DNA of 64,000 bases. Origin: Archaeoglobaceae archaeon. Lineage in GTDB: Archaea; Halobacteriota; Archaeoglobi; Archaeoglobales; Archaeoglobaceae. Positions 5,642-30,518 of this stretch are shown piece by piece. The translations under genes and the position numbers were made by a program. The stretch lies in assembly GCA_025058735.1 (NCBI GenBank), contig JANXDX010000017.1, positions 1-64,000 on the forward strand, given 5' to 3'. Under the pieces are notes generated by a model that ran no database searches, was not told where the DNA came from, and was given only the letters and a program-made list of their open reading frames with translations. Within the stretch, counting starts at the first letter, position 1. Every line of letters starts with the position of its first letter.

Positions 5642-6868
5642 ATGAACATATTCGAACGTTTTTTATCTTCATCGAAGATTTTTAAAAATAGAGAAGTTTT
5701 GTGGCACAGTTACACTCCAGATTATCTGCCTCATAGAGAGGAGCAAATTGAACAACTTGCAACTTTACTATCTCCAATTTTAAAGGGTGGAAATCCTTCG
5801 AACATATTCATATACGGAAAAACAGGTACTGGTAAAACGGCAACTGTGAGATTTGTAACAAAACAACTTTTAGAGATCTGCAAAAAGTTGAATTTAAATT
5901 TGAACGTTGTTTACTTGAACTGCGAAATAGTCGATACGACTTTTAGAATATTGGCTAAATTAGCTAAAGCTTTAGGAAGAGATATTCCAGATACTGGATT
6001 GTCGATAGATCAAGTTTATTCAGAGATTTTGAAAGTTTTTGAGAAAAGAGAGAACAGTAAAGTGTTGATCGTATTGGATGAAATTGACAAGATCGTAAAG
6101 AGGGCTGAAGAGGCTTTGTACAGTATTACAAGGATCAATTCAGAGATCGGCACTGCAAAAGTTAGCATTATAGGAATAACGAACAACTTAAAGTTCAAAG
6201 AATCTCTAGATGCTAGAATTTTGAGCAGTTTAAGTGAGGAGGAAATAGTTTTTCCACCTTACAATGCTGAGCAGCTTGAAGACATACTGAGGCAGAGAGC
6301 TGAGATGGCTTTCAACGACGGTGTAATAGAATGTGGAGTAATTGAACTCTGCGCTGCAATAGCTGCCCAAGAGCATGGAGATGCCAGAAAAGCTCTAGAT
6401 CTTTTAAGAGTTAGTGCAGAGATAGCTGAAAGGCTTTGTGAAGATAAAGTCAAAGTTGAACACGTTAGGATGGCTTTGAAAAAGATAGAATGTGATCGAG
6501 TTTCCGAAACAATAAAAACTCTACCCGTTCACAGCAAAATTTTGCTTTACGGAATAGCAATCCTTTCAGACATGTACGAAAAATTTACAACTGGAGAAAT
6601 ATATACAGTCTACAAAAGGCTTTGTGGAAAAGTTGGATTAACTGCTTTAACTCAAAGAAGGATAAGTGATCTGATCTCAGAACTAGATATGCTTGGAATA
6701 CTAAACTCTGTAATAATATCTAAAGGGAGATACGGTAGAACTAGAGAAATAAAGTTAGAAACTGATTCAAAATTCATAAAATCTGTTCTTGAAGAGGATT
6801 ACAGACTTAAAGACCTGAGGAGTTACGAAGATGAAATAAAGAAGTTTGCAAAACTAATTCTGGAGTAG
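5642..6868 (+). CDS. cdc6: Orc1/Cdc6 replication initiator
   Basis: A 408-residue AAA+ ATPase with Walker A GKTGTGKT at 59-66, Walker B VLDEID near 143-148, and a C-terminal winged-helix region (about residues 300-408). Orc1/Cdc6 binds ORB elements at origins, melts the A+T-rich unwinding element and loads MCM. The length is normal for the family. The gene stands alone with its own promoter. Inverted ORB-like elements lie about 22 kb to the right, so the initiator is not immediately beside the best origin candidate. Archaea often have more than one paralogue, and the sequence alone does not show which one acts at that origin. Confidence 0.95.
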   Translation: MNIFERFLSSSKIFKNREVLWHSYTPDYLPHREEQIEQLATLLSPILKGGNPSNIFIYGKTGTGKTATVRFVTKQLLEICKKLNLNLNVVYLNCEIVDTTFRILAKLAKALGRDIPDTGLSIDQVYSEILKVFEKRENSKVLIVLDEIDKIVKRAEEALYSITRINSEIGTAKVSIIGITNNLKFKESLDARILSSLSEEEIVFPPYNAEQLEDILRQRAEMAFNDGVIECGVIELCAAIAAQEHGDARKALDLLRVSAEIAERLCEDKVKVEHVRMALKKIECDRVSETIKTLPVHSKILLYGIAILSDMYEKFTTGEIYTVYKRLCGKVGLTALTQRRISDLISELDMLGILNSVIISKGRYGRTREIKLETDSKFIKSVLEEDYRLKDLRSYEDEIKKFAKLILE

Positions 6869-26481: not shown

Positions 26482-27681
26482 TCAAGCCCTCTCTAAAACT
26501 ACAGCAGCTCCCTGCCCACCACCAATACAAGCTGTAGCAAGGCCATAGTCTTTGTTTTCTAATTTAAGTATCCTTGAAAGAGTTCCAACAAGTCTAGCTC
26601 CAGTTGCACCTAATGGATGTCCAATTGCAATTGCTCCACCTTTTACATTTACTTTTTCTGGCTCTATTCCAAGTTTTTTGATAGCAAAAAGGGTTACAAC
26701 TGCAAAAGCTTCGTTTATTTCCCAGTAATCTATATCTTTAACCTTTAGATTTGCTTTTTCTAGAGCTTTAAGGCTTGATGGGACTGGGCCTTTGCCCATA
26801 ACATGCGGTGGAACTCCAGCTGTTCCGTAACTTATTATTTTTGCTAGAGGTTCTATCCCAAAATCCTTTACTTTTTCCTTACTCATCAACATTATCGCTG
26901 CAGCTCCAGCGTTTAGTGGAGATGAGTTTCCAGCGGTGATAACTCCTCCAGGCTTAAAAGCTGGTGGAAGCTTTTCTACTGCTTCAAGGGATGTATCTGG
27001 ACGAATTGATTGATCCGTTTCCACTAAGATCTTCTTTCCATCAGCTTGTTCAGCTTCAACAGGTATTATCTCTCCTTTAAAATAGCCCTCTCTTAAAGCC
27101 TTTGCAGCATACCTATGACTTCTCACTCCCCACTCATCTAGATCTCTTTTGCTTAACCCAAATTCTTGAGATGCCTCCTTAAAAAGTTCTTCAGCTGTCA
27201 AACCCATGACAAAACCTATGTCCATTCTGTAGTCCTTGTATTCTTCACTCAGAAGTTTAGGATTTATAGATACGTATGGATTTTCTGCACCCATCGGAAT
27301 TCTTGTCATATGCTCAAATCCACCAGCAATTACTACATCGCAGTAACCAGCGGAGATTTCAAGATAGCCATAGATTGCAGTCATAAGAGATGAAGCGCAC
27401 TGCATATCTATCAAAGAAGTAGATACTTCTGCTGGGTACTTAGCTAATAAAACAGGAGACTTTCCACCGTAGACCCAATTTTCATAAACTGGAAACGCAC
27501 AACCTATAAGAATTCTATCAACATCTTTTTTTTCTATCCCTAAACGTCTTGGAAGTTCATCTAAAACTGTTGCCATCAATTCATCTCCTCTTATTTTATA
27601 AAAAACATCTCTTTCAGGTTCTCTTGGCCTACTTCTTGAAAAAGGTGTTCTTAGAAATCCAGCAACATACACTTCTCTCAT
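26482..27681 (-). CDS. Acetyl-CoA acetyltransferase (thiolase)
   Basis: A 399-residue thiolase with nucleophile C95 (MQCASS), NEAF near 315, His in [16 protein letters not shown] near 350, and the second active Cys in CIGGGQG near the C-terminus. All catalytic residues are of the classical degradative/biosynthetic type. It probably cleaves acetoacetyl-CoA or a longer 3-ketoacyl-CoA. It is first of a two-gene leftward operon with 4-hydroxybutyryl-CoA dehydratase, and its start is the closest leftward gene start to the proposed origin. Confidence 0.93.
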
Positions 27682-28103
27682 CCGATCACCTTAGACTGTT
27701 GGATCGATTGATTTTAAATGTTTCGCTCTTAGTGAACTTTGGGAAAAAGCTTTTCGTAGAAGATGAATTTATATTTTAAAAGTTTACGTTGATACGATAA
27801 GTCTTGAAATAATAAAATATATATTTAATAATAAAATTATACTAAACTTACTAACCCCCTCCCCCCTCCATTTCCTGTGGAAACGTTGGAAGGTCGATCT
27901 GTCAAACTGAAATTTTAAATTTAACTTTTAAAGTTTGTTCTTACAAAAAACAATGGAAATTTTTCTCTAATTTTACTGAAAACTTTTTAAAACAGTTAAA
28001 TTACTAATTAAAGTTTATAAGAATCTTAATTGAATTAACTTAGACGATCTATTTTAATTTTGTAAAGCGGAGAATTTATTACTAAGTCGAGCTCAAGTTT
28101 TCT
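27682..28103. other. Intergenic region holding the left origin element
   Basis: About 420 bases between divergent genes. Apart from the ORB-like element at 27855-27886 it is A+T-rich, with no gene seen. It must hold the promoters of the leftward thiolase operon and of the small rightward gene. Confidence 0.5.
27855..27886 (-). repeat. ORB-like element, left copy
   Basis: Read on the minus strand: TTTCCACAGGAAATG, then GA, GGGGGG, A, GGGGG. The dyad TTCC-ACA-GGAA followed by a G-run has the same layout as the archaeal origin recognition box (TTCC-N3-GGAA, short spacer, G-run). It matches the right copy apart from the spacer and one base between the G-runs. Confidence 0.8.
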
Positions 28104-28328
28104 ATGGACGAAAAGATCCAGGAAATAGAATCCAAAGTTAAAGAACTTAGCAAAGCTATTGAAACCATAATAAAAGAGTTGACGTTTATAAAGGCTGAAA
28201 TAAAAAGTATTAAAGATTTACAGGACAAAAGAGGGCAAAGTAAAGTAGTCAAAAAGATTGAGGGTGAGCAAAAAGAAGAGGAGAGTTTAGAAAAAAAAGA
28301 TGATTCTAGTATAATAATTTGCGATTGA
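28104..28328 (+). CDS. Small coiled-coil protein inside the proposed origin
   Basis: Seventy-four residues starting at ATG 28104. Residues about 3-45 show a regular heptad pattern of I/L/V with charged residues (a coiled coil), followed by a Lys/Glu-rich tail ending SIIICD. I recognise no family. The strongly helical, acidic/basic composition is protein-like and unlike random A+T-rich translation, but a short open frame in such DNA is not proof. It ends at the edge of the A/T tract. A role in replication is only a positional guess. Confidence 0.5.
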   Translation: MDEKIQEIESKVKELSKAIETIIKELTFIKAEIKSIKDLQDKRGQSKVVKKIEGEQKEEESLEKKDDSSIIICD

Positions 28329-28360
28329 TATATAATAATAATTATATATAATTATATTTA

Positions 28361-28405
28361 ATTTAATTATATTTGATTTTATTTTATTTAATTATATTTG
28401 ATTTT
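28361..28405. repeat. Pair of 20-base direct repeats in the A/T tract
   Basis: The 20-base sequence at 28361-28380 recurs exactly at 28386-28405, five bases apart (period 25). Both are in the A/T tract of the proposed origin and each contains the only G of the immediate area in TTTGATTTT. Confidence 0.7.
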
Positions 28406-28740
28406 TATATATAATATAATAAGATTACGAGAGATCTTATATTTAGGCAAATTTGTCATATTTAATAATAATATATAAAATTAATATATTTTTTAATTTT
28501 AATTTAAATTAAAAATTTAATTTTTAAATTTATTTTAATTATTAAATTTCATATATTTATTAAATCTCACATTTTTTACCTTATTTTTTTAAGATATTAG
28601 AAAATAACAGTTATTTTTGAATAAAAAAGGTTTTTGATTAAAATTTTACAATTTGAAGTAAAATCTCCATTTTCTATTGAATTTAAAGATGTAAGCAGTC
28701 TTTTTACTTTTAGCGATCACTTCTACTTCACTTTGACAAG

Positions 28741-28769
28741 TTCCACAGGAAATGAGGGGGGTGGGGGGT
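28741..28769 (+). repeat. ORB-like element, right copy
   Basis: Read on the plus strand: TTCCACAGGAAATG, A, GGGGGG, T, GGGGGG, T. Same dyad and G-runs as the left copy, in inverted orientation, with G-runs pointing outward from the A/T tract. Confidence 0.8.
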
Positions 28770-28917: not shown

Positions 28918-29607
28918 GTGAGGATTCCGATGTTCATAGAATTCAGTGGTAAGAATGTAGCAGTGATAGGTGGAGGAGGGGTTGGAACTTCAAGGGCAAA
29001 AAAATTTGTAGAAGCTGGAGCTAAAGTGACGATATATTCTTTAGAATTTTCTGAAGAATTGAAAATTTTGGAAAAAGAAGGTAAGATCTCTCTAGTTAAA
29101 GTAGATGCAAAAGAATTAAACTACGAAGAAGTTTTGAAAAATTACGATCTTGTAGTTGTAGCAATAGGTGATCTCAGTTTGAACGAAAAAATAGTAGAGG
29201 CTGCTAGGAAGAATAAAACTCTTGTAAATTTAGCAAACGACGCCGTTGCTACTGAAATTGTAATTCCCTTTGAAGGGAACGTTGATGGAATAAGGTTCGC
29301 GATCACGACTGAAGGAAAAAGTGGTGTTGTAGCTAGGAAAGTTAAAGAAATATTTGAAGAAGTTCTAAGAAATAGAAAAGATATAAGGTGTTTCTTGGAG
29401 GTTATGGATTTTATAAAGAAGTACATGAAAGAAAACAATATCCCGATAAAAACTAGAATGAAAGTTTACCCATCTTTAAGCTCAAACAAAGAATTTCAAA
29501 ACTTAGTTTTCGAGTGTAGAAGAGATGAAGCTATAGAATTTGCAAAAAATTATGTAAATAAAATAATAAAAGAAAAAATAAAATTAGAAAAGGTGATAGA
29601 ATTCTGA
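28918..29607 (+). CDS. Precorrin-2 dehydrogenase / sirohydrochlorin ferrochelatase family (Met8/CysG-B)
   Basis: A 229-residue protein with an NAD-binding GGGGVGTSRAKKF loop (residues about 17-29) and the N-terminal MFIEFSGKNVAVIGGG segment typical of Met8/CysG-B/SirC. It oxidises precorrin-2 to sirohydrochlorin, and some members insert iron. GTG start at 28918. It leads a rightward group with the siroheme decarboxylase-like gene, fitting siroheme and alternative haem synthesis. Whether it also chelates iron cannot be seen. Confidence 0.9.
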   Translation: MRIPMFIEFSGKNVAVIGGGGVGTSRAKKFVEAGAKVTIYSLEFSEELKILEKEGKISLVKVDAKELNYEEVLKNYDLVVVAIGDLSLNEKIVEAARKNKTLVNLANDAVATEIVIPFEGNVDGIRFAITTEGKSGVVARKVKEIFEEVLRNRKDIRCFLEVMDFIKKYMKENNIPIKTRMKVYPSLSSNKEFQNLVFECRRDEAIEFAKNYVNKIIKEKIKLEKVIEF

Positions 29608-29621
29608 ACATCAATCTTTTA

Positions 29622-30518
29622 ATGGCTTTACAGTACAATCTACCAATTTCTACAACTCCTCTAGAAGATCTAGCTTCAAATCTAAAATTAGATTATGAAG
29701 AAGTGGAGAAAAATCTTAAGAACTACAAATTGCAAGGGATTTTGAAAAGGTACGGTGTAAATTTTAACTACAGGGCTTTTTCAAATTACAAAAACGCAGC
29801 TTTAGTAGGTTTAAAAGTTGACGATGTAGAAAAAGCGAAAGCGATAAACAAGTTTGACGAAGTAAAAGTTAAGCACAACTTTTTAAGAAGTGCTGAATTC
29901 AACGTATGGTTCACGATAAAAGGTAGAACTTTGGAGGAAATTGAAAAAGATGTTTTAGATGTTGTTGAAGAATGTAATGCTTCAGATTACGTAATTTTAC
30001 CAACAAAAAAAATCTACAAAATGGATGTAAAATACGATCTTATCAAAGGTATTTCTTGGAGTTATAGAGCTGAGCCAGAAGAAGTTCCTACGATTGAAAG
30101 TTTTGGAATAGATGAAGATCTAGCAAGAAAACTTGAATCTCTACCAATAGCAAGAAGACCGTTTAAGTTCGAAGGATACAAAGAAGAAGAAGTAGTTTCA
30201 ATAGTGGAAGAGTTGATAAAAGTTGGAATTGGGAGAGATTTTAGTGGTATTTTGAATGAGAGGAAAATAGGTTTTAATGAAAACGGTATGTTTGTTTTAA
30301 AGACAAAAGATCCAGAGAAAATTGCTAAAAAGCTTTTAAAAGATTACCCACAGATAACTCATTTAGTAGAAAGAGTTCCAAGTAAAAAGTGGAATTACTC
30401 TTTGTACTTTGTTGTTCACGCTGTGTCGAAAGATCCGATAGAGAAAATTAGGATAGAAGTAGAATCTTTTGTTGACGAAGTTAGAGTAATTTATAGCTTG
30501 AAAAACTTGAGAGTATGA
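29622..30518 (+). CDS. ahbAB: Siroheme decarboxylase, apparent AhbA-AhbB fusion (Lrp/AsnC-like)
   Basis: The 298 residues consist of two halves, each like the siroheme decarboxylase AhbA/AhbB (usually about 150-170 residues each): an N-terminal winged helix with an AsnC-like domain (1-145), then a second copy from about 155 (LARKLESLPIARRPF, RKIGFNENGMFV). AhbA/AhbB removes two acetate carboxyls from siroheme to give 12,18-didecarboxysiroheme. It lies 14 bases after the precorrin-2 dehydrogenase gene. The ATG start looks late: homologous sequence (ILNINLL) continues upstream in frame, and the ribosome site GGTGAT at 29592-29597 better fits a non-AUG start at 29601 or 29604. Confidence 0.8.
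   Translation: MALQYNLPISTTPLEDLASNLKLDYEEVEKNLKNYKLQGILKRYGVNFNYRAFSNYKNAALVGLKVDDVEKAKAINKFDEVKVKHNFLRSAEFNVWFTIKGRTLEEIEKDVLDVVEECNASDYVILPTKKIYKMDVKYDLIKGISWSYRAEPEEVPTIESFGIDEDLARKLESLPIARRPFKFEGYKEEEVVSIVEELIKVGIGRDFSGILNERKIGFNENGMFVLKTKDPEKIAKKLLKDYPQITHLVERVPSKKWNYSLYFVVHAVSKDPIEKIRIEVESFVDEVRVIYSLKNLRV

Follow-up and report, generated by a model that had tools for sequence, protein, structure and literature searches.

The stretch of DNA analysed here (the window) comprises 64,000 nucleotides from the genome of an Archaeoglobaceae archaeon (G000; 1,222,266 bases in 29 unordered contigs, 99.84% complete), and contains two near-identical elements, each consisting of TTCCACAGGAAATG followed by a double G-run, which lie inverted, 0.88 kb apart and with their G-runs pointing outwards (Table 1). 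The genes on either side diverge, with the thiolase and an HpaB-family gene running leftward and the sirC-like, AhbA/B-like and ttuA genes rightward, as the initial annotation had noted in describing a switch of coding strand across the region. Between the elements the DNA is 79.6% A+T; no other 300 bp of the window are as rich in A/T as positions 28329-28628 (92%), and the figure rises to 99% over one 100-bp stretch. The description of the interval as almost pure A/T therefore applies to some 350 bp beside the right element, but not to the interval as a whole; a 74-aa ORF also lies inside it.

Table 1. Features of the window relevant to the paired elements.
Feature	Position	Strand	Remarks
Orc1/Cdc6 initiator	5642..6868	+	presumed ORB binder
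Thiolase (acetyl-CoA acetyltransferase family)	26482..27681	-	left flank, transcribed away from the putative origin
Left ORB	27855..27886	-	TTCCACAGGAAATG + GAGGGGGGAGGGGG; G-run leftward (outward); about 180 bp upstream of the thiolase gene
74-aa coiled-coil ORF	28104..28328	+	homolog, in core and C-terminal IICD, of a small gene that directly precedes smc in relatives
A/T-rich tract	28329..28680		90-92% A+T, up to 99% over 100 bp; candidate duplex unwinding element
Right ORB	28741..28769	+	TTCCACAGGAAATGAGGGGGGTGGGGGG, from 28741; G-run rightward (outward); about 155 bp upstream of the sirC-like gene
sirC-like precorrin-2 dehydrogenase and AhbA/B-like siroheme decarboxylase	28918..30518	+	right flank

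Read directly, the minus strand of the left element is TTTCCACAGGAAATGGAGGGGGGAGGGGG, which confirms that the same string recurs, as first claimed, on the plus strand of the right element. Both copies follow the ORB consensus of TTCC-N3-GGAAA and then a G-string, with ACA at the centre as in the published Archaeoglobus ORBs (PMC3035285). They lie one to a side of an A/T-rich region with their G-strings outward, so the ORB layout and opposite facing originally read here stand. A 19-mer of the element, allowing up to three mismatches, was found twice in the window against 0.02 matches expected from window shuffles, none of the shuffled windows containing two. The double G-runs, which had been singled out as exceptional, are the only two in the 64 kb on either strand, and all runs of six or more come from them. 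A genome-wide search for scattered copies of the dyad TTCCACAGGAAA, which had been proposed as a check, returned only three in 1.22 Mb, two in this region and one on contig C12, and a 20-mer allowing three mismatches recovered the window pair and a single site on contig C22. The C12 copy and the C22 near match both lie within ORFs and neither is strong against the full element; the window pair represents the sole intergenic copies in the 1.22-Mb genome. Scatter over many non-origin loci, which had been named at the outset as a refuting result, is thus not seen in this genome.

Across the class, the element (consensus YTCCACAGGAAAYRANGGGGK, two mismatches allowed) is present in 56 of 59 genomes, and the reversed pattern gave only a handful of matches. 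When neighbouring sites on opposite strands were counted within 35 kb, 27 of the 28 pairs had the left-minus, right-plus order that places the G-runs outward, these 27 coming from related, and hence non-independent, genomes of more than ten genera. The single reverse-order pair comes from G020, which we take to be A. veneficus, and involves an additional site beside glyS. Each complete genome has one main pair, and some relatives carry further single boxes outside it. The distance between the boxes varies from 0.88 kb in the window, through 1.0-1.5 kb (genera g4 and g12), 3-8 kb and 10-18 kb, to 30.6 kb in G001, with polarity fixed throughout, and this is a new observation. G001, presumably Archaeoglobus fulgidus, has boxes at 1,430,022 and 1,430,247 of 2,178,400 with an inverted partner at 1,399,411; in L036, from A. 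profundus (we take G015 to be this species), the boxes are 1,265 bases apart, and in G027 a 5.7-kb interval is flanked by three boxes at either end. We likewise assume that G014 is A. sulfaticallidus, G023 Ferroglobus placidus, and G026 and G027 Geoglobus species. As a separate observation, the extra box in G020 (L038:18428) lies 74 bp upstream of glyS, a gene that many other genera carry within the box interval or adjoining it.

An element of this kind has been described previously. The available part of PMC3035285 reports a 22-base ORB for the predicted origins of A. fulgidus and A. profundus, placing the A. fulgidus site at 65.6% of the genome, in agreement with the experimentally mapped single origin, and mentioning two near-identical boxes there, though not the inverted partner at 1,399,411; for A. 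profundus it gives inverted 22-mers 1,264 bases apart. These published ORBs are the same element as that in the window (1,430,022/2,178,400 = 65.6%; 1,265 bases), and the match in position and in spacing (1,265 vs 1,264) also fits our naming of the two genomes with the published text. The element is thus already known in kind, as an ORB origin, and the window is a further example of it in unexpected surroundings. It shares with both species the 22-base ORB and a non-adjacent cdc6 (PMC3035285), and with A. profundus the inverted pair, but its interval is shorter (0.88 kb) and its G-run is extended to 6+6. The contents of the interval differ as well, with a homolog of the smc-leader gene in the window, UPF0147/p27-type genes in A. 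profundus and the smc-scpA operon in A. fulgidus.

A. fulgidus has no apparent GC skew (PMC5732400), its sole Ori-Finder 2 origin prediction was not a true positive (PMC4164010), and an ORB could not be identified in the Geoglobus ahangari genome (PMC4600277). Using fourfold sites and correcting for gene orientation, we found no significant replication skew in G001 (40 x 20 kb) or G015 (20 x 20 kb), both complete relatives. A T/A optimum near 1.42 Mb in G001 at first looked suggestive, but a second sample and a test of the pooled data did not bear it out. The missing signal in these two genomes counts against an origin, but skew is uninformative in this family, and the absence of a skew change, initially offered as a refuting result, is inapplicable to the window.

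Searching the genome for the Cdc6 lid domain gave a single match, the Orc1/Cdc6 of the window; its best PDB match is Sulfolobus Orc1-1 (2qby_A, E 8e-121), with Aeropyrum Orc1 also among the closest. By presence and by type, then, a presumably cognate Orc1-1-type initiator is encoded here. Its gene is not adjacent to the boxes but 21 kb away; such adjacency is usual rather than universal, cdc6 not being adjacent in A. profundus either (PMC3035285). In the seven relatives examined (G010, G013, G014, G021, G041, G043 and G045), orc1 is preceded on its own strand by a single box, at a distance of 130-180 bp, and this is an independent link between the motif and Orc1; the orc1 gene of the window has no box upstream. 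These boxes (L103:4647, L104:4155, L105:4732, L106:4000, L107:5486, L113:4237 and L115:3090) are spread over several genera and suggest that Orc1 regulates its own expression in these relatives. One might then ask whether the paired boxes are merely operator sites, at which Orc1 or another regulator controls the divergent flanking genes with no origin involved, since they lie 155-180 bp upstream of those genes, the same distance as that of the single box from orc1 in relatives, and single boxes away from the pair would also suit this function. We consider this improbable, given that the outward pair is kept while the flanking genes change among genera (glyS, thioredoxin reductase, PAS kinases and others) and that in A. 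fulgidus the mapped origin is in agreement with this locus (PMC3035285).

The sirC-like and AhbA/B-like genes also adjoin an ORB in G001 and G002, the sirC-like gene being found beside one in both the window and genus g2. A scan of contigs with the sirC-like protein matched only a korarchaeon, with no ORB.

We therefore conclude that 27855-28769 is very probably a chromosomal replication origin, for which initiator binding, unwinding and firing are predicted by homology with mapped archaeal origins. This conclusion draws on the uniqueness of the intergenic pair in the genome, the recurrence of the element across the class with few reversed-pattern matches, the 27 outward pairs against one, and the identity of the element with the published A. 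fulgidus and A. profundus ORBs, the former at a mapped site (PMC3035285). It also draws on the outward G-string geometry seen in Haloarcula hispanica oriC1 (PMC3936714), the box upstream of orc1 in relatives together with the nearness of the window Orc1 to Sulfolobus Orc1-1, the sirC-like gene beside an ORB in the window and in genus g2, and the homology of the 74-aa ORF to the smc leader in a genome where the SMC hinge, ScpA and ScpB have no match. The distance of the initiator gene, the wide spacing of the boxes relative to Sulfolobus (see below) and the presence of only one box per side count against it. The origin proposed in the initial annotation is hence supported by the class-wide outward pairs, the published ORBs and the type of initiator, its activity being a prediction.

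The oriC1 of H. hispanica, which has been dissected genetically, has the same outward G-strings as the window but an adjacent cdc6 (PMC3936714), and we noticed no inner G-rich inverted repeat in the window such as that origin possesses. The extended G-string, which was termed halophile-specific (PMC3936714), is also found in the window and in genus g12. The ORB3-DUE-ORB2 arrangement of Sulfolobus oriC1 resembles the window in having inverted ORBs, a defined Orc1 polarity and an A/T-rich unwinding region, but this unit spans 130 bp compared with 0.88 kb here, and orc1-1 is located at oriC1 (PMC12141716). Work on Sulfolobus and haloarchaea (PMC12141716, PMC6742236, PMC3936714) provides the basis on which we would expect each ORB to bind one Orc1 whose direction the box dictates, with the TTCC-N3-GGAA dyad read by the winged helix and the G-run by the AAA+ domain. 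With the boxes inverted, the two Orc1 molecules may direct MCM helicases to the A/T-rich DNA lying between them; the duplex would open there, and two forks would depart in opposite directions. Since 0.88 kb in the window and 30.6 kb in A. fulgidus are far larger than the 130 bp of the Sulfolobus unit, both boxes need not share one unwinding site.

The genes between the boxes connect this putative origin with condensin. A divergent UPF0147/autoantigen-p27 pair occupies the interval in most other genera, often with glyS and sometimes with PAS/GAF kinases. In the window's genus (g1) and in g2 and g10, a coiled-coil gene, smc and scpA lie in the interval or beside a box, joined within the interval by scpB in G002, and this placement of the smc-scpA operon in the window's genus and two others is new. 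Most of the genera examined have the coiled-coil gene ahead of smc, even where smc is remote from the origin. The gene has a conserved end, (I/L)-(I/V)-(C/V)-D; it has no convincing Pfam or NCBIfam family. The 74-aa ORF scores 110-132 against these smc-leader genes, compared with shuffle maxima of 71-75 (0 of 300 shuffles reach the score). Coordinates for the leader gene are L042:4853-5296, L188:4593-5096 and L175:3147-3497, alongside the ORF in the window.

No match to the SMC hinge, ScpA or ScpB was found in G000 at its 99.84% completeness, the best SMC_N match being Rad50 in a HerA-Mre11-Rad50-NurA-like cluster (the Rad50 gene lies on C9, L192:2640-5258). The genome appears to have lost SMC, ScpA and ScpB, and deletion of the condensin operon from within the origin interval is the simplest account; loss of these genes with the smc-leader homolog kept would have produced the compact origin seen here. 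The contig is continuous across the 0.88-kb interval, and inverted repeats alone cannot collapse an assembly. One contig of G003 starts at a box, so assembly breaks do happen at such sites.

This association could suggest that the boxes are parS-like loading or boundary sites for condensin, bracketing smc-scpA in several genera, and smc is indeed beside or between the boxes in the g1, g2 and g10 genomes where it was located. The pair is nevertheless kept where smc is elsewhere (G014, G015, G020, G023 and G025-G027) and also in this genome, in which none of SMC, ScpA and ScpB can be detected; the motif, moreover, is that of a standard Orc1 box. All of this makes such a role very unlikely. We give still less credence to a mobile element bounded by the two copies, or to a simple inverted repeat whose cargo changes; inversion, variable contents and the G002 arms, identical over about 280 bp, would fit, but there is one main pair per complete genome, the cargo consists of core genes, the ORB consensus is conserved and no transposase was recognised among the interval genes examined.

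Returning to the origin itself, a broader proposal, which we put forward tentatively and regard as possible rather than likely, is that Archaeoglobaceae origins are split, with 0.9 to 30 kb of core genes, often including the condensin operon, set as an island between two outward arrays of Orc1 boxes. Under this proposal the fixed polarity over such distances implies that the arrays work as a unit, by looping or as two initiation sites sharing one domain, and the window organism would be a euryarchaeon without SMC-ScpAB that deleted condensin from inside its origin and kept the smc-leader gene. An outward polarity maintained over 0.9-30 kb challenges the simple model in which only a short unwinding element separates two Orc1 molecules that face one another. 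With the conserved pair, an entire archaeal class for which skew is no guide gains an origin that is consistent and open to testing; in this class, a paper on a Geoglobus genome had found no ORB (PMC4600277). The connection of the boxes with condensin, together with the apparent loss of condensin from this small genome, provides a natural case for studying SMC-free chromosome organisation in archaea, for which the Desulfurococcales offer a comparison (PMC10769869).

Two further features of the boxes in relatives were seen. The left and right boxes of genera g4 and g7 share 20-40 further identical bases outside the G-run (L036:9007-10350, L102:372-1440 and L096:5760-16020), the conserved element thus extending outward in these genera. 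The box arrays of G002 (L042:4532 and L042:15626) lie in the identical inverted arms mentioned above, which suggests gene conversion between them.
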